Shown piece after piece: positions 26,806-34,547 of a stretch of 64,000 nt of DNA. This DNA comes from Thermoanaerobacterium aotearoense (GTDB taxonomy: Bacteria; Bacillota; Thermoanaerobacteria; Thermoanaerobacterales; Thermoanaerobacteraceae), in NCBI RefSeq assembly GCF_009905255.1, contig NZ_CP047602.1:1971501-2035500 (forward strand), in the 5' to 3' direction. The position numbers and the translations under genes are program-made. Positions within the stretch are counted from its first letter, which is position 1, and the number at the start of each line of letters is the position of its first letter. Below the pieces are notes generated by a model, which made no database searches, was not told the DNA's origin, and saw nothing but the letters and a program-made list of their open reading frames with translations.

Positions 26806-26822
26806 TCCCTCATAAAGAGGGA
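26806..26822 (-). terminator. Terminator of the PTS-GH1 operon
   Basis: Six-base arms (TCCCTC / GAGGGA) with a 5-nt loop lie just past the GH1 stop. On the minus strand a run of seven T follows. Confidence 0.85.
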
Positions 26823-26827
26823 AAATT

Positions 26828-28222
26828 TCATTCGCTAAACCCATTGTTTTTTGCTAATTCTTTATACCAATATCCACTTTTCTTGATAGTCCTCTTTTGT
26901 GTTGATATGTCGACTGATACGAGCCCATAGCGATTTTTATAAGCGTTTATAAATGACCAGTTGTCCATGAAAGACCAAAGGTGATAGCCTTTTACATTGC
27001 ATCCTTCTTCAATCGCCTTATGAAGCCATATTAAATGACCTTTGATAAAATCTATTCTATAATCATCCTGGATTACACCGTCTTTTATGAAGCGTTCTTC
27101 TCCTTCCACGCCCATGCCGTTTTCTGAAATATACGATTCAATGTTTCCATAGTTGTCCCTTACATTTATCAAGATGTCATATATTCCTTTTTCATATATC
27201 TCCCATCCTCTGTACGGATTCATCCTTCTTCCTGGCATTACATACTCATCAAAAAACCAATCAGGCGTAAATACTCCATAAGGATTTGGCATGTTTTCCT
27301 TTGCTTTAACCCTTCTTGGCTGATAGTAATTTACTCCAAGATAGTCAACCGTATTATTCTTTATGAGTTCAAGATCATCCTCAGTATACACCGGTAAATG
27401 ATTGTAACTCTTTAAAAGCTCTACAAGTTTCTCAGGATACTCTCCTTTGACACATGGATCTAAAAAGCTTCTATTGAAAAGAAGATCAGCTATTTCTGCC
27501 GCCTTAAGATCTGCAGGATGATTGCTACGAGGATATGATGGAGTAAGGTTTAATACAATCCCGATTTTTCCATCTTTTATGTTTGATTTTTTGAACTCGT
27601 TTATTGCCATTGCGCTTGCCAAAACTGTATTGAAACATACCTGTATAGCTTTCTTAAAATCCACGATATCAGGATAATGAAAGTTATAAAGGTATCCTCC
27701 CTCTGCTGGAACTATAGGTTCATTGAAAGTAATCCATCTTTTTACCCTATCTCCAAAAAGCTCAAAGCATGTCTTAGCATAGTTTTTGTAATTCTCCAAG
27801 ACTTGACGGCTTTCAAATCCTCCTATGTGCTGCATTTCAATAGGCATATCGAAGTGAAACAAAGTAGCTATAGGCATAATACCATTTTCTAAAAGCTCAT
27901 TTATGACATTATTATAGAAATCTACAGCTTTTTTGTTTACTTCACCTACTCCACCCGGAATCAGTCTTGACCATGATATAGAAAATCTAAACGAATTGTG
28001 TCCTATTTCTTTCATCAATTTTATGTCTTCTTTATATCTATGGTAAAAATCAGATGTCACTTCAGGTCCTACTCCATTAAAAAAGCGGTTTGGTACTTGC
28101 TTGTACCAATAATCCCATACATTCATTCCTTTCCCGTCTTCGCTTGCAGCACCTTCTATCTGTGTTGCAGATGTGGCAGAACCCCACCAAAAACCTTCTG
28201 GAAATTTATACTCTTTTGCCAT
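26828..28222 (-). CDS. GH1 glycosidase, probable 6-phospho-beta-glucosidase
   Basis: A 464-residue GH1 enzyme with acid/base E168 (TFNEP) and nucleophile E367 (ISENG). In plain beta-glucosidases the motif near the end is DNFEW, whose Glu binds the sugar. Here it reads DNWSF, with Ser423 at the Glu position, followed by K429 and Y432. The phospho-enzyme LacG has Ser-Lys-Tyr in this loop, although the Lys is one residue off here. Together with the PTS genes upstream this favours a phosphorylated disaccharide substrate. It is cytoplasmic. ATG behind AGGAGGAAAG, overlapping the preceding gene by 17 bp. Confidence 0.85.
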   Translation of the reverse strand: MAKEYKFPEGFWWGSATSATQIEGAASEDGKGMNVWDYWYKQVPNRFFNGVGPEVTSDFYHRYKEDIKLMKEIGHNSFRFSISWSRLIPGGVGEVNKKAVDFYNNVINELLENGIMPIATLFHFDMPIEMQHIGGFESRQVLENYKNYAKTCFELFGDRVKRWITFNEPIVPAEGGYLYNFHYPDIVDFKKAIQVCFNTVLASAMAINEFKKSNIKDGKIGIVLNLTPSYPRSNHPADLKAAEIADLLFNRSFLDPCVKGEYPEKLVELLKSYNHLPVYTEDDLELIKNNTVDYLGVNYYQPRRVKAKENMPNPYGVFTPDWFFDEYVMPGRRMNPYRGWEIYEKGIYDILINVRDNYGNIESYISENGMGVEGEERFIKDGVIQDDYRIDFIKGHLIWLHKAIEEGCNVKGYHLWSFMDNWSFINAYKNRYGLVSVDISTQKRTIKKSGYWYKELAKNNGFSE

Positions 28223-28715
28223 TTTTCTTTCCTCCTCTTGTTTTGTTAGTCACATAGCTTGCAATAAATTTTTCCCCACCTAATGATATTAGAAAATATC
28301 CTACGGAAAATATTATCACTAATGGACCGAAGAATTCTTCTAATACAATACATATCGCCAGTGCATGCGTCGCATAAACTATCAAGTCGTAATAGTTCAA
28401 TTCTCTTTGCTTCTTTATAAGTGCCACAACATAAAAGACAAGTGATAGCACAAGCGACGACGCTATCAAACCAATGTACAGAAATAGTAATGAGGATGCA
28501 ATATTTTTTATTGATAGTTTTAAATAGCTATTTAAAAACACTGAAAAATTGCCTGTAAATAGTGATATTATAAGTTTAATAAGTGTTAAATAGACAACGC
28601 CAAAAATCGTCAAGATAAGGTCAAACCTGAGAAGTTTAACTATAGATTCGCCTTTTAATCTTTTGTAGTATTGAGGCATAAACAGGCTTATTTTTAGTTC
28701 TTCCAAAACACCCAT
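28206..28715 (-). CDS. Small polytopic membrane protein of unknown function
   Basis: A 169-residue protein with four hydrophobic stretches (about 30-55, 70-105, 110-125, 128-145) and a basic C-terminus (TRGGKKNGKR). I do not recognise a family. ATG with AAGGAG upstream. It is co-transcribed between PTS IIC and GH1 and overlaps GH1, so a link to uptake of the PTS sugar is possible but unproven. Confidence 0.65.
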   Translation of the reverse strand: MGVLEELKISLFMPQYYKRLKGESIVKLLRFDLILTIFGVVYLTLIKLIISLFTGNFSVFLNSYLKLSIKNIASSLLFLYIGLIASSLVLSLVFYVVALIKKQRELNYYDLIVYATHALAICIVLEEFFGPLVIIFSVGYFLISLGGEKFIASYVTNKTRGGKKNGKRV

Positions 28716-28794: not shown

Positions 28795-30120
28795 TCAGCC
28801 TTTTTGGCTCTCAACAGCCATCGCTTGCTCTTGCTCAAGGTACTGTCTATCTACGACTCTTAAGAATGGCAAGTATATGAAGAACGAAATCACTAATTCA
28901 ATTATCTGCCATACAGCACCGCTAAAGCCTGATACTAAAAGTCCTCCGATAATAGGTGGCGTAGTCCATGGTATTACAACACCTGTTGGGTGCCCAACAA
29001 GACCTATTGACATGACGATGTAAGTCAAAGTAGCCAAAATCATCGGTGTCAATATGAATGGTATTACCATTATTGGGTTTAAAACAATTGGAAGTCCGAA
29101 TATTACAGGTTCATTGATATTGAATAAACCAGGAACTATAGCAAGTTTTCCAACAGTCTTAACCTGTCTTGATTTCGAGAAGAAAAGCATAGCAAGTACA
29201 AGTCCTAATGTGCTGCCTGAGCCACCTACCAGCATGTACATGTCGTGGAACTGCTGTGTTATGATGTGTGGAACTGGATGACCAGCTTGGAATGCCTGCA
29301 AGTTCTCTGCTGCAAGTGCCAGCCATATTGGTCCCATAACAGATCCAACTACATTTGCACCGTGTATACCAAATGACCAGAAAAGTCCTTCGAAGAAGTT
29401 AGCAATCAATGTAGCAGGTAGTGTATCTCCAAGTCTTGTCAAAGGTATCTGCAATACTGTGTAGATAAATTGATGTATTGTACCGTAAGATGTCATAGCA
29501 AACAGCATTCTTATAACATCGATGATGATAGCAACTATAGCCGCAGGTATCAATGCAGAGAAAGCTCTTTCAACTGCAGGTGGAACACCTTTTGGCATCT
29601 TAATTACCCAGCCTCTTTTTATAACAAATCTTACGATTTCTACTGACAGTATCGCCGTCAAAATACCTACAAATAGACCTTTTGAGCCCATCCAATCAAC
29701 TGGTATGCCACCACTTACTTGAATTGCTTTTTTAGCTCCTTCAGGTGTATAATTAACTATAAACGGTGTAAATATCAAAAATGCAACGAGTGCAGTTGCA
29801 GCCGTGTTTAAACCATCAATCTTATAATGCCCTGCGAGGCTATACGCAATGCCAAATACTACAAATATACTCATTATTGACATTGTAGCCTCAAAGGGCC
29901 TCATAAAGAATGTATTCCAGTTTGGTCCAAAAGCCTTTGCCATAAAATCAGAGTATCCAGGTATGGGCAAAAACGCCAGCAACAAGAAAACAGCACCTAT
30001 TGTAATGAGTGGAACAGCAAGCATAAAGCCATCACGAATTGATGTCAAGTACCTATTTTCGGAGATTTTGCCTGCTATAGGCATCAATTTTTCTTCAAGC
30101 GAATCTGTAAACTTACTCAT
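28795..30120 (-). CDS. celB: PTS cellobiose-family permease, EIIC
   Basis: A 441-residue membrane permease of the lactose/cellobiose PTS family. It opens FTDSLEEKLMPIAGKISENRYLTSIRDGFMLAVPLI and carries GLFNINEPVIFGLPIVLNPIMVIPF, the substrate-binding NEP motif of this class. About ten membrane segments. It transports and, with IIA and IIB, phosphorylates a beta-disaccharide. ATG behind AAGGAGTG. Confidence 0.93.
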   Translation of the reverse strand: MSKFTDSLEEKLMPIAGKISENRYLTSIRDGFMLAVPLITIGAVFLLLAFLPIPGYSDFMAKAFGPNWNTFFMRPFEATMSIMSIFVVFGIAYSLAGHYKIDGLNTAATALVAFLIFTPFIVNYTPEGAKKAIQVSGGIPVDWMGSKGLFVGILTAILSVEIVRFVIKRGWVIKMPKGVPPAVERAFSALIPAAIVAIIIDVIRMLFAMTSYGTIHQFIYTVLQIPLTRLGDTLPATLIANFFEGLFWSFGIHGANVVGSVMGPIWLALAAENLQAFQAGHPVPHIITQQFHDMYMLVGGSGSTLGLVLAMLFFSKSRQVKTVGKLAIVPGLFNINEPVIFGLPIVLNPIMVIPFILTPMILATLTYIVMSIGLVGHPTGVVIPWTTPPIIGGLLVSGFSGAVWQIIELVISFFIYLPFLRVVDRQYLEQEQAMAVESQKG

Positions 30121-30179: not shown

Positions 30180-30488
30180 CTATTTATTAGCCATGCTTAA
30201 AGCTTGGTCTAACACTTTTTCCCCATCCATCATGCCGTAGACGACTGGATTTATCACATCTACAGGCACACCTTTTTCGCTGCATATTTTCTTTGCTTTT
30301 GGCAAGATGAATTTTACCTGTGGGCCTAAGAGAACCACATCAGCTTCTTCTACGTATTTTTCCATCTGTGCCTCAGGGTATGCATCGACAACAACTTCTA
30401 TGCCTCTCGCTTTTGCTGCTTCTTCAATTTTTCCAATCAACATGCTTGTGGATGAACCTGAAGAGCAAAATAGAATAATCTTAAGCAT
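30180..30488 (-). CDS. celA: PTS cellobiose-family EIIB
   Basis: A 102-residue cytoplasmic phosphocarrier. The phosphorylated residue is Cys8 in the P-loop LFCSSGSSTS. The start is ATG at 30488 with AAGGAGGG upstream; the longer frame to 30509 contains that site. It passes phosphate from IIA to the sugar on IIC. Confidence 0.93.
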   Translation of the reverse strand: MLKIILFCSSGSSTSMLIGKIEEAAKARGIEVVVDAYPEAQMEKYVEEADVVLLGPQVKFILPKAKKICSEKGVPVDVINPVVYGMMDGEKVLDQALSMANK

Positions 30489-30547
30489 TAACGTTTTCCC
30501 TCCTTTCAAAAAAACTTTGTTTGTAAAAGCAATTTTTCATTTTATCT

Positions 30548-30617
30548 TCAAGGATTTCCCTACTACATATCAAGACAAGAACTATTAAAACATCTTAAAA
30601 AGAGGGAAATCCCTTGA
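30548..30617 (-). repeat. Long-range inverted repeat between the GrdB-like gene and IIB
   Basis: TCAAGGATTTCCCT (30548-30561) pairs with AGGGAAATCCCTTGA (30603-30617) with one bulged base and a 41-nt loop. No T run follows on the minus strand. It may set the level of IIB and IIC relative to the first two genes. Confidence 0.55.
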
Positions 30618-30656
30618 AAGCAAAAGTAATCAATCCAAAAACATCGGCATCACCCC

Positions 30657-31187
30657 TTAATCTTGCGGAAAATATCCTTCCTCTTCAGGAGATCCTATAG
30701 GCTGCCCTTGAGCCAACTTTACTGCAAACTTTGATATCTTTCTTAATGAATCGTTTAGGCCTATACCACCCCTGTTTGGAGTCTCTATGATGTATATCTT
30801 TTTTCTGAACAATTCTGTGCCTGTGTTGTCTTTTGACATAGCCGCAAACGCAGGAATATTTAATTTCTCTATGACAGCTTCTGTCAAATATCCACAGCAA
30901 TCACCGTATCTTTTGTAGTTTAATGCGGGGCCGCATATAACAACATCTGGATTAAACGCCTTTATCATGCTTAATAATTTTTCAATAGCTTCATCCTTAT
31001 TTTCAAGAAAATAGTTATCACCACAAATTACAGTGCCAATTATGTCACCGCCGTTTCTCATCATGGTGTTTTTCAAAAGCATGCCCAATCCTATAGCACC
31101 AAACTGAGATTGAGGTTCCATATTCATTTTTTCATCTGTTCCGTATCCTGCTTGAACTTGATTTAAAAATTGTACCGCTTTAATCAT
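30657..31187 (-). CDS. GrdB N-terminal-domain-like protein in a PTS operon
   Basis: A 176-residue soluble protein that resembles the N-terminal domain of GrdB, the substrate-specific subunit of glycine/sarcosine/betaine reductase. Matching segments are GTVICGDNYFLENKDEAI, VVICGPALNYKRYGDCCG and GSPEEEGYFP. In GrdB the chain continues into a C-terminal domain holding selenocysteine. Here it ends with TAA right after GSPEEEGYFPQD, so that domain is absent, not read through. ATG behind TAGGAGG. It lies between IIA and IIB in one transcript. Function in a sugar operon is unknown; substrate reduction is unlikely without the Sec domain. Confidence 0.75.
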   Translation of the reverse strand: MIKAVQFLNQVQAGYGTDEKMNMEPQSQFGAIGLGMLLKNTMMRNGGDIIGTVICGDNYFLENKDEAIEKLLSMIKAFNPDVVICGPALNYKRYGDCCGYLTEAVIEKLNIPAFAAMSKDNTGTELFRKKIYIIETPNRGGIGLNDSLRKISKFAVKLAQGQPIGSPEEEGYFPQD

Positions 31188-31215: not shown

Positions 31216-31548
31216 TTATTTTGTCACACATGTATGAAGAACTGGTTCCAACATCTTCCTAAGCTCAATAATCTCTGATATGAGATTTTTCTCTGATATA
31301 GCAGTCATAAGATGATCTTGTGAATGCACAAATAATATAGAAAAATCTAATTTTTCACCTGATGCTTCTTTTTGCAACATGCTGGTCTGAACATTATGAG
31401 CTTTTTCTATAGCCTCATTAGCCTGGGACATAAGTTTTTCAGCTTCTTCAAATTCGCCGTCATACGCCTTTCTAAGCGCTTCGTGTGCATATGCCCTTGC
31501 TTCACCTGATTGTATAATGATTTCCATAACTATTTGCTGCAAATCCAT
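31216..31548 (-). CDS. celC: PTS lactose/cellobiose-family EIIA
   Basis: A 110-residue all-helical phosphocarrier. The phosphorylation site is His75 in VHSQDHLM, with D78 as the likely trimer metal ligand. It accepts phosphate from HPr. ATG behind AAGGAGG. First gene of the sigma-54-type operon, with the leader and promoter just upstream. Confidence 0.94.
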   Translation of the reverse strand: MDLQQIVMEIIIQSGEARAYAHEALRKAYDGEFEEAEKLMSQANEAIEKAHNVQTSMLQKEASGEKLDFSILFVHSQDHLMTAISEKNLISEIIELRKMLEPVLHTCVTK

Positions 31549-31603: not shown

Positions 31604-31620
31604 TGCAAAAACCATGCCAA
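31604..31620 (-). promoter_or_regulatory. Sigma-54 (-24/-12) promoter of the PTS operon
   Basis: The minus strand reads TTGGCATGGTTTTTGCA, with GG and GC elements exactly 10 bases apart, against the consensus TGGCAC-N5-TTGCA. It lies about 55 bp upstream of the IIA start, and the divergent gene is an AAA activator with a GAYTGA loop. Confidence 0.92.
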
Positions 31621-31757
31621 AACACTAAACTACATAAAAAAGCCGCGATTTATGCTATCCAGACGCTTTAAAACAAACAGTGTTTCTTAGTGTTTAATAA
31701 AAATCTGCATATTGTTTTATTGTTTTTTATTAGTGTTTTAATGTTTCAATAGTGTTT
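31620..31757. promoter_or_regulatory. AGTGTTT repeat cluster, probable CelR activator sites
   Basis: AGTGTTT occurs at 31679, 31689, 31732 and 31751, a variant AATGTTT at 31740, and the inverted AAACACT at 31620. The first pair is spaced 10 bp, one helical turn. The cluster lies 60-140 bp upstream of the -24 element, the usual place for an enhancer of a sigma-54 promoter. Confidence 0.65.
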
Positions 31758-31774
31758 AATCCAGTAAATCACTA

Positions 31775-31802
31775 TTGAAAAACTTATTGCAAAATATATA
31801 AT
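31775..31802 (+). promoter_or_regulatory. Sigma-A-type promoter of celR
   Basis: TTGAAA (31775-31780), a 16-bp spacer and TATAAT (31797-31802) face the celR gene. Confidence 0.7.
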
Positions 31803-31847
31803 AAGATATAGGTAGAGAAAGTTATTGTGGTAAAGGGGATCTTTAAG

Positions 31848-34547
31848 TTGAAAAGAAAAGAATTAATTTTAAAAAAGTTGATAGAGCTAAACAGAGGAAA
31901 CGGCGTAGATGCCATGACATTGGCAAATGAGCTAAATATGTCGCGAGCAAACGTTAGTCACGAGTTAAATCTTTTGTGCAAGGAAGGAAAAGTCGTAAAG
32001 TCAGATGGCAGGCCAGTGATGTTTTCACCTGTGTTTGAAAGTGCTAAAAGCAATTCCAGCGACAGCAAATTGTATGAGCTGGACATGCTTATTAAAAACA
32101 ATATAAGCCTAAAACAGGCCGGTGAACAGGCAAAAGCTGCTATTTTATATCCTCCTAAGGGAATCCACTGCTTAATATTAGGTGAAACAGGTGTAGGAAA
32201 ATCAACTTTTGCGCGAATAATGCACAAGTATGCCATAGATATGGGTGTAAAAAAGCCTGACGCTCCATTCATAGCATTTAACTGCGCAGATTACAGCAAC
32301 AATCCGCAGCTTTTGACGGCACAGCTATTTGGGGTCAAAAAAGGCGCTTACACAGGTGCCGATACAGACAAAGAAGGGTTAATCGAAAAGGCAAATGGAG
32401 GAATCTTATTCCTTGATGAAGTCCATCGCTTGCCGCCTGAAGGACAGGAGATCCTATTCACTTTCCTCGATACTGGGTATTTTAGAAGAGTTGGCGATGT
32501 AGAAAATAGGACATCTGATGTTCTAATCATATCGGCTACAACTGAGGATCCTTCTTCATCCCTTTTAAATACATTCACCAGAAGAATACCGATGATAATT
32601 AAAATACCACCACTTAGAGAAAGGACTTTAGAAGAAAGGTTTTATCTTTTAAAAAGATTCTTTAAACACGAAAGCATAAAGCTAAACAGAGATATATTCG
32701 TATCGCTTAATTCCATGAGGGCGTTTTGTTCATATGACTGTCCAAACAACATCGGTCAATTAGAAAGCGATGTCAAGCTTATATGTGCAAAGGTCTATTC
32801 AGAATTTCTGACTAACAAGAAAAGCGACATAAGGATCTGCAGCAGAGACTTGCCTGATTATATAAAGAAAGGATTATATACAGATAAACAGCATAGAATG
32901 CTGTGGAATGAAGTCATAGGCGATGATATAGAGTTCTTTAAGTTTTCTCCTACAAATGAAATAGAGGAGATTCCAACTGCCTCTAACGATAACAGCATTT
33001 ACGAGATAATAAATGATAGACTAAAGCAGCTTAAAGCAAAAGGTATATCTGATATAGACATTGAATCAATTTTGGAGAAAGACATAGCAAAGTACTTCCA
33101 CAAGCAGATATATGGTATAACTGAGGAGAAAAACAAGCAAAACTTGATTCACATCTTAGGAGAAGACATAATAAGCATTACAGATAGGATTGCAGAACTG
33201 GCATCCGAACTACTGGGAAAAGATCTCAGTCAAAACAGCTATACTGCACTTGCTTTGCACTTAAACACGCTTATTGAAAGGGTCAACAAAAATAAGCCTA
33301 TTGTAAATCCTCAACTATCAAAAATAAAACAATTATACCCAAGGGAATTTGAAGTTGCTATTGAAGCCAAAAAAATCATAGAGAGATATTTGAATGTTTC
33401 GATTCCAGAAGATGAGGCTGGATTTATCGCAATATTTCTCATGTCCGATAAGGAATACATCAATAAGCAAAGTGAGAAAGTCAAGGTGATAATAATTGCC
33501 CATGGCAATTCTACTGCCACATCCATGGCAGATGTGGCCAATAAATTGTTGGGTGAAAATTATGCAATAGGCTTAGATGCCCATCTTGACAAAAGTCCCC
33601 TTGAAGTATTAGAAAGTTTGAAAGACTACGTGAGGCATGATATGAATCAGGCAGGATACCTTCTCTTAGTAGACATGGGCTCCCTTACAACATTTGGCGA
33701 AACGATTGAAAAAGAGTTTAATGTGCCAGTAAAAGTTATACCGCTTATTTCCACTCTTCACGTCATCGAAGCTACCAGAAAAGCGCTGTTAGGCATGCCT
33801 CTTAACAATATTTACATGAGCGTACAGTCGATAAATTCGTACATGGAGAACAACATGGATTTTGCTCCACTGATAAGCGACAAAAAGAAAATCGCAATCA
33901 TAACAGCATGTCTTACTGGGGAAGGCGCCTCTGTTGCAATCAAAAGTTTCTTAAAAAACAACTTAAAGTACGACAAAGATTTATTTGAGATAATACCAAT
34001 TGACAGCCTTGATAAACACATGACAATGAAGAAAATAAACGAAATCCAGGAAAACATGGAAATAGCTTTTATCGTATCGTCTTTCCCATTGGATACTAAT
34101 ATTAAACAGTACAGCATGAATGACGTCTTAAGCTTAAAAGTCATGAAAGAATTGCAGGAGATAGTAGATATTAAGACAACCCTTATCAAGATGGGCAATG
34201 TATTGAAAGAAAACATCCATAACATCGATGGCGAGGAACTCTACATCGATATACAAAACACTATAATGAAGCTTTGCGACACGCTGTCGATTTGCTTTGA
34301 TGATGACATGCTGCTTGGCATAATACTTCACTTTGCTTTTATGGTAAGCAGAATCAAAAAAGGAGAAAAAAGCATTGAGTATATAGGAAAAGAAGAATAT
34401 ATTAAAAACAACAAATCATTGTACAACGCAGTAAAGAAAGCATTGACGCATTTAAACACAAAATATTCTATAATAATACCTGATGATGAAATATGCTATA
34501 TAATGAGATTTTTCCAGGAAAAAGATGCTCTTTTCAATATGATATGA
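31848..34547 (+). CDS. celR: LevR/CelR-type PTS-controlled sigma-54 activator
   Basis: An activator of about 899 residues. In order: N-terminal helix-turn-helix (about 1-50), AAA domain with Walker A GETGVGKST (about 112), the sigma-54-contacting GAYTGA loop (about 166) and Walker B ILFLDEV (about 186). Next come a PRD domain with His in LALHLN (about 471), a mannose-IIA-like domain with IIAHGNS (about 552), a IIB-like segment and a second PRD (ILHFAFM near 830). Phosphorylation of these His residues by HPr and the PTS would set activity. TTG at 31848 has AAAGGGGAT upstream; GTG at 31827 is the alternative. It is divergent from the PTS operon it should activate. Confidence 0.92.
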   Translation: MKRKELILKKLIELNRGNGVDAMTLANELNMSRANVSHELNLLCKEGKVVKSDGRPVMFSPVFESAKSNSSDSKLYELDMLIKNNISLKQAGEQAKAAILYPPKGIHCLILGETGVGKSTFARIMHKYAIDMGVKKPDAPFIAFNCADYSNNPQLLTAQLFGVKKGAYTGADTDKEGLIEKANGGILFLDEVHRLPPEGQEILFTFLDTGYFRRVGDVENRTSDVLIISATTEDPSSSLLNTFTRRIPMIIKIPPLRERTLEERFYLLKRFFKHESIKLNRDIFVSLNSMRAFCSYDCPNNIGQLESDVKLICAKVYSEFLTNKKSDIRICSRDLPDYIKKGLYTDKQHRMLWNEVIGDDIEFFKFSPTNEIEEIPTASNDNSIYEIINDRLKQLKAKGISDIDIESILEKDIAKYFHKQIYGITEEKNKQNLIHILGEDIISITDRIAELASELLGKDLSQNSYTALALHLNTLIERVNKNKPIVNPQLSKIKQLYPREFEVAIEAKKIIERYLNVSIPEDEAGFIAIFLMSDKEYINKQSEKVKVIIIAHGNSTATSMADVANKLLGENYAIGLDAHLDKSPLEVLESLKDYVRHDMNQAGYLLLVDMGSLTTFGETIEKEFNVPVKVIPLISTLHVIEATRKALLGMPLNNIYMSVQSINSYMENNMDFAPLISDKKKIAIITACLTGEGASVAIKSFLKNNLKYDKDLFEIIPIDSLDKHMTMKKINEIQENMEIAFIVSSFPLDTNIKQYSMNDVLSLKVMKELQEIVDIKTTLIKMGNVLKENIHNIDGEELYIDIQNTIMKLCDTLSICFDDDMLLGIILHFAFMVSRIKKGEKSIEYIGKEEYIKNNKSLYNAVKKALTHLNTKYSIIIPDDEICYIMRFFQEKDALFNMI

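Follow-up and report, generated by a model that had tools for sequence, protein, structure and literature searches.

A stand-alone relative of the GrdB N-terminal lobe encoded beside a subset of lactose/cellobiose-family PTS permeases

Introduction

Few bacterial transport systems have been studied as thoroughly as the phosphotransferase system (PTS), whose list of components is generally regarded as complete. What, then, is the role of a gene related to an amino-acid reductase that lies inside a PTS operon? This question is raised by a stretch of 64,000 nucleotides from Thermoanaerobacterium aotearoense (hereafter, the window), in which a gene on the minus strand (30657..31187) encodes a protein of 176 aa, called here GrdB', corresponding to a stand-alone N-terminal lobe of the reductase subunit GrdB. 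An extra conserved gene that tracks one branch of lac-type permeases across several sugar pathways suggests that a control or processing step is missing from the current picture. Besides, the present analysis would correct a misleading annotation, since such a gene goes by the name of "selenoprotein B" in T. saccharolyticum and is labelled "reductase" or "oxidoreductase" in other organisms.

Results and discussion

GrdB' is a single lobe of GrdB

The gene starts with an ATG preceded by TAGGAGGATAAAATG and ends with a TAA stop. The Pfam GRDB profile matched the protein with 165.5 bits (2.6e-48), residues 2-175 being aligned with profile positions 2-173 of 347, and the GrdB model TIGR01918 gave 154.8 bits over model positions 1-171 of 431. 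The N-terminal GRDB domain recognised in the preliminary description is thus present. The C-terminal selenocysteine (Sec) domain, marked by the Sec codon TGA and a UGTCTRCG motif, is absent, since the reading frame closes with TAA (TAG in some relatives), and the second half of GrdB was not found in the 168-nt gap separating GrdB' from the gene for PTS IIB. It had been proposed that the stop falls just where the Sec domain begins. The stop does coincide with a domain border, the end of the N-terminal lobe, but in full GrdB a linker of about 55 residues intervenes before the Sec domain. GrdB' is also the sole GRDB gene of the genome (2.67 Mb, single contig).

AlphaFold2 predicts a single parallel alpha/beta/alpha lobe with a pLDDT of 96.9 and a pTM of 0.93. 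The solved folds nearest to this model were LacI-type/periplasmic sugar-binding lobes (Z 11.1, rmsd 3.2, 131 aligned residues), and receiver domains also matched it with Z about 10. The predicted fold is a common arrangement, so that these matches are generic and a function is not deducible from them. Among solved structures, none related by sequence to GrdB' or GrdB was found. Full-length GrdB was modelled and compared with the PDB to ask whether its Sec domain resembles PTS IIB, which would point to a possible docking of GrdB' on IIB in the manner of the N-lobe on the Sec domain. The inter-domain arrangement of this model was unsure (pTM 0.58). PTS IIB was absent from the PDB matches listed, which covered almost only the N-lobe, and the match of whole GrdB to two-lobed periplasmic sugar-binding proteins was weak (best Foldseek E 1.5e-4, low TM).

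The gene belongs to a sigma-54-type PTS operon

On the minus strand of the window, the operon is ordered as follows: -24/-12 promoter, IIA, GrdB', IIB, IIC, a small membrane protein, a GH1 glycosidase and a terminator-like hairpin. As previously noted, GrdB' lies between two PTS genes, with IIA upstream (31216..31548; Pfam PTS_IIA, 123.8 bits) and IIB downstream (30180..30488; Pfam PTS_IIB, 79.8 bits), both of the lactose/cellobiose family, the ATG of IIB at 30488 being preceded by AGGAGG. The IIC gene of the same family (28795..30120) is CelB-like, with 530.7 bits against TIGR00359 for a cut-off of 434. The last gene (26828..28222; Pfam Glyco_hydro_1, 486 bits) probably encodes a 6-phospho-beta-glycosidase and is followed by the hairpin (26806..26822), which reads TCCCTCTTTATGAGGGA then TTTTTTTATT. 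Between IIC and GH1, the small membrane protein (28206..28715) has no Pfam or NCBIfam family for its window copy and is a second unexplained passenger of the operon; Clostridium simiarum carries one at the same place (L026, 10534-10992), with a Yip1 score of 20 bits that stays below the cut-off of 28.6.

The sigma-54 promoter of the preliminary description was borne out. Indeed, TGGCATGGTTTTTGCA (31604..31619, minus strand) is the sole match to TGGCAYN5TTGCW in the 64 kb, for 0.29 expected by chance, and a -24/-12 site is found upstream of IIA in every Thermoanaerobacterium locus that has the gene as well as in C. simiarum, where the chance expectation for such a match was 0.01. A PRD-containing sigma-54 activator is encoded divergently on the plus strand (31827..34547; Sigma54_activat 147.9 bits, PRD 131.6 bits). 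In the gap between the activator and the operon (31660-31775), repeated words resembling AGTGTTTNA were seen by eye and are candidate binding sites for the activator.

An intercistronic hairpin separates GrdB' from IIB (30546..30619, minus strand). It comprises 23 pairs, four of them with two-sided changes among seven sequences, and is kept in Thermoanaerobacterium; by fold energy alone, it does not stand out (z -0.9). It was not seen in C. simiarum, and Rfam gave no match within the window at the gathering threshold. Such a hairpin could result in mRNA levels for IIB and IIC that differ from those for IIA and GrdB'.

GrdB' is maintained by purifying selection

GrdB' is kept in eight of the nine Thermoanaerobacterium genomes, the one without it being the least complete (89%). 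The genome of the window groups with this genus, matches in contigs named T. saccharolyticum and T. butyriciformans being 95-100% identical. Where synonymous change was measurable, pairwise dN/dS within the genus ranged from 0.009 to 0.048, one near-identical pair excepted. The C. simiarum operon has the same gene order as the window, and GrdB' is the best conserved of the four proteins compared between the two groups, with 74% identity (69% for IIC, 60% for IIB and 32% for IIA). GrdB' is a real gene under strong purifying selection.

These values bear on the reading of GrdB' as the vestige of an earlier GrdB gene that was trapped among PTS genes, a reading to which we give a negligible chance. 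In its favour, the stop is located at a domain border, and a broken copy does exist in Enterococcus faecalis OG1RF, where the GrdB-like gene is a pseudogene (PMC11160706). Against it stand the good ribosome-binding site and the dN/dS, which rules the fragment out for this genus; the recurrence of the same short form in the six lineages described below also argues against it.

Short forms are set apart from full-length GrdB

In a tree of 56 N-lobes, a single branch (support 100/99) separated nine short forms from 47 full-length ones. The root of this tree was not inferred, and either the short forms would have arisen once from GrdB, or GrdB would have arisen from a short form that gained a Sec domain. 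The two groups also differ in how they end. A complete protein of 400-460 aa, with TGA read as Sec, was found at 52 of the 54 full-length loci; in TGA-ended full-length relatives, about 350 codons precede the TGA, and GTCTRCGA or a sequence very similar to it comes next. A Bathyarchaeota copy (L032) is one open frame of 444 aa with a TAG stop. The short forms instead stop without any continuation, at TAA, TAG or a genuine TGA.

Within the lobe itself, C55, G56, G86, P87, G16, G33 and P112 are common to short and full forms. The motif PxxGGxGLNxSL of the short forms occupies the site of the reductase SAAGMR; most of them have Y91, K/R/P92, P137, K/R139, G140, G141, L144 and S147, of which Y91, P137, G140, G141, L144 and S147 are specific to the short forms, whereas the reductases have A91, G92, S139, A140, A141, M144 and A147 at these columns. 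In the PxKGGxGLNxS loop, the window protein has R instead of K. Compared with the selenoprotein B of glycine, sarcosine and betaine reductase (GrdB/GrdF/GrdH; TIGR01918, PF07355), GrdB' shares N-lobe residues 2-173, with 38-50% identity to the closer members, but it has no Sec/UxxCxxC domain and no GrdE neighbour, and both the FNAGRYG and the SAAGMR loops are replaced.

For the most part, this family is already catalogued by NCBI as NF041545 (GrdB_like_no_Se, "GrdB-related putative oxidoreductase"); it has been little described, but does not amount to a novel type of system. Like GrdB', NF041545 proteins are stand-alone GrdB N-lobes of about 172 aa without Sec, found in lac-type PTS operons, and they lie on the same side of the 100/99 branch. 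The model covers four of the six lineages with 211-262 bits; the window protein, aligned over model positions 1-163 of 171 and likewise devoid of Sec, reached 162.7 bits and that of C. simiarum 161.4, both below the cut-off of 175. Unlike NF041545 members, the window protein has a GrdB-like C-terminus, GSPEEEGYF, and no terminal C[FY]. Judged from these sequences, NF041545 does not include the proteins of Thermoanaerobacterium and C. simiarum, which are better described as its sister group.

The cysteines could be taken to mean that GrdB' is a thiol-redox partner, protecting or switching the phosphorylated cysteine of IIB through Cys55 and, in NF041545 members, through the C-terminal Cys-aromatic pair. 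This would fit with the active-site Cys of IIB, with the invariance of C55 among short forms and with the C[FY] ending NF041545 members. However, C55 is 98% conserved in full GrdB too and may be structural, and the C-terminal Cys is missing from the proteins of Thermoanaerobacterium and C. simiarum, which makes this role quite improbable. The papers found report no oxidoreductase activity for NF041545 proteins.

Short forms accompany lac-type permeases, full-length forms accompany GrdE

The genomic neighbourhoods of the two groups were then compared. A lac-type IIC was found at 31 of the 31 short loci, which include several overlapping or near-identical records and were counted as six lineages for this reason. 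In contrast, GrdE was found at 53 of the 54 full-length GrdB loci and lac-type PTS genes at none, many of these loci being stretches of only 3.5 kb. GrdE was searched by tblastn with two GrdE proteins over both sets of loci and the window; it was matched at 0/31 short loci and not within the window. Short homologs are hence not found beside complete Grd systems, and their link with lac-family PTS genes is conserved throughout the six lineages. The contrast in linkage between short and full forms gives good support to a reuse of the GrdB domain in a sugar-uptake setting. Regarding the novelty that had been suggested for this function, it is partial, given NF041545 and the E. faecalis report (PMC11160706).

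The same counts weigh on the possibility that GrdB' is a functional subunit of a reductase, with a Sec domain and a GrdE partner encoded elsewhere. Homology to the N-lobe speaks for it, but the genome holds no other GRDB match, GrdE is not nearby in any short locus, and residues conserved in the reductases are altered in the short family. A hidden split GrdB was rejected on the first two of these grounds, and we regard the whole reading as very improbable.

The six lineages are Thermoanaerobacterium, C. simiarum, a genome of the same order (G022), a genus of another family (G325/G427), Latilactobacillus curvatus and E. faecalis. The G022 operon reads IIA-IIB-IIC-GrdB'-MupG-antiterminator and that of G325/G427 IIB-IIC-GrdB'-dipeptidase-asparaginase-type hydrolase-IIA. 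L. curvatus has N4-GlcNAc-asparaginase-GntR-GrdB'-IIC-dipeptidase, IIC being the sole PTS gene left beside GrdB', and a chromosomal stretch of E. faecalis, deposited under a phage name, has GntR-dipeptidase-glycosylasparaginase-IIB-IIC-GrdB'. Phage-labelled, unannotated records with lac-type PTS genes (OR846587.1, PQ520013.1 and "Listeria phage LM") resemble host chromosome. In locus L076 (6376-8285), the short GrdB-like gene lies immediately ahead of the MupG 6-phospho-N-acetylmuramidase gene, a third substrate setting.

The catabolic neighbours therefore vary (GH1, the 6-phosphomuramidase MupG, or glycosylasparaginase with dipeptidase) while the lac-type permease is constant. Because the enzymes vary and the PTS stays, the partner of GrdB' would be the transporter or its common sugar 6-phosphate product rather than one catabolic enzyme. 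This bears on the main rival explanation, an enzymatic role on the phosphosugar. GrdB' would then act on the incoming 6-phospho-glycoside, by itself or together with a general partner, and prepare the substrate of the glycosidase, its activity being that of an oxidoreductase, an isomerase or a hydrolase. The NCBI family name, the conservation of Cys55-Gly56 and Gly86-Pro87 in short and full forms, and the catabolic genes that always adjoin GrdB' are consistent with such a role. It is however unlikely, though less so than the other alternatives: the adjoining enzymes differ, no cofactor motif was recognised in GrdB', the known Sec chemistry of GrdB belongs to the absent domain, and an ega-type operon of Enterococcus gilvus (L091, 2429-7727), ordered IIB-IIC-IIA, has the same catabolic genes as E. 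faecalis without GrdB'. In ega-type operons, the slot behind IIC is occupied by IIA in E. gilvus and by GrdB' in E. faecalis (L081, 3072-8513).

Most lac-type permeases are without GrdB'. Of 398 genomes sampled from the phylum, 115 contained a GrdB-like match, and nearly all of the matches listed were open frames of at least 300 codons; at the threshold set, the short form occurred in only six genomes of two genera. No relatives of GrdB' were found in two families of this phylum, represented by 394 and 54 genomes, a search run without a positive control, and the distribution hence looks patchy. None was found in the viral contigs searched either, and among 661 plasmid records with a relative of IIC, a short GrdB was seen only in L. 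curvatus. On the IIC tree, GrdB'-bearing IICs were clustered, with two changes for 5.8 in shuffled data and 0 of 500 shuffles as low. A single clade of all GrdB'-bearing IICs was rejected by the AU test (p 2e-6), at least partly due to the IIC of E. gilvus, which is without GrdB' and has the E. faecalis IIC as its sister.

A proposed role as an accessory protein of the permease

Since GrdB' is always encoded beside that type of importer, it probably helps the lac-type importer. We propose that it would be a dedicated cytoplasmic accessory protein for a subset of lactose/cellobiose-family PTS permeases, derived from the N-terminal lobe of GrdB or of common ancestry with it, and acting without the Sec domain and without GrdE. 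According to the motif and the predicted fold, on which this reading is based, the PxKGGxGLNxS loop, located where the last long helix begins, resembles an anion-binding loop. It may bind phosphate, either on the sugar phosphate that the PTS produces or as the phospho-group of IIB. Phosphate binding would let GrdB' sense or tune the flux through the IIB/IIC pair, and GrdB' would carry out no reduction.

We give an even chance to an accessory protein of the PTS permease that binds phosphate or a phosphosugar, rather than a reductase, the mechanism being inferred. The more specific proposal is put forward only tentatively, its odds lying below even. It holds that short GrdB-like proteins are an unrecognised component of one branch of lac-family PTS, working as a phosphate- or phosphosugar-responsive flux controller that docks on IIB/IIC, recruited from the reductase N-lobe or ancestral to it. 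Lac-type transport as such can do without GrdB', as illustrated by the E. gilvus operon without it, by the OG1RF pseudogene and by the T. aotearoense genome itself, which has three lac-type PTS operons, one with GrdB' and two without. Its role is helpful and not essential, at least in enterococci.

Relation to known systems

To our knowledge, the CelR/sigma-54 cellobiose PTS operons, as usually described, have no GrdB-like gene. These operons of Bacillota, of which the cel operon of Bacillus thuringiensis is an example (PMC10864463), combine, as in the window, a PRD-type sigma-54 activator with a cellobiose PTS; the window operon also has GH1. The ega locus of E. faecalis is like the window in having a short GrdB-like gene, located directly behind the lac-type IIC and called a putative oxidoreductase (PMC11160706). 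Unlike the window operon, it has no sigma-54 activator and no IIA, and glycosylasparaginase and dipeptidase replace GH1. The locus, whose PTS is one for GlcNAc-Asn, is associated with the use of this compound, which is credited to Combret et al. 2023 (PMC11160706).

No paper testing the function of a GrdB' gene was found in the literature search. The operon of T. saccharolyticum makes a direct test of GrdB' possible. In this genetically tractable species, three independent mutant alleles of Tsac_1263, a PTS transcriptional activator, appear in resequencing tables (PMC4910263), and Tsac_1265, annotated "Selenoprotein B", carries one SNV in an adapted strain whose rpoN was broken as well (PMC5886521). 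From the order of the locus tags, and given that each genome of the genus has one match, Tsac_1263 is probably the activator and Tsac_1265 the GrdB' of this operon.
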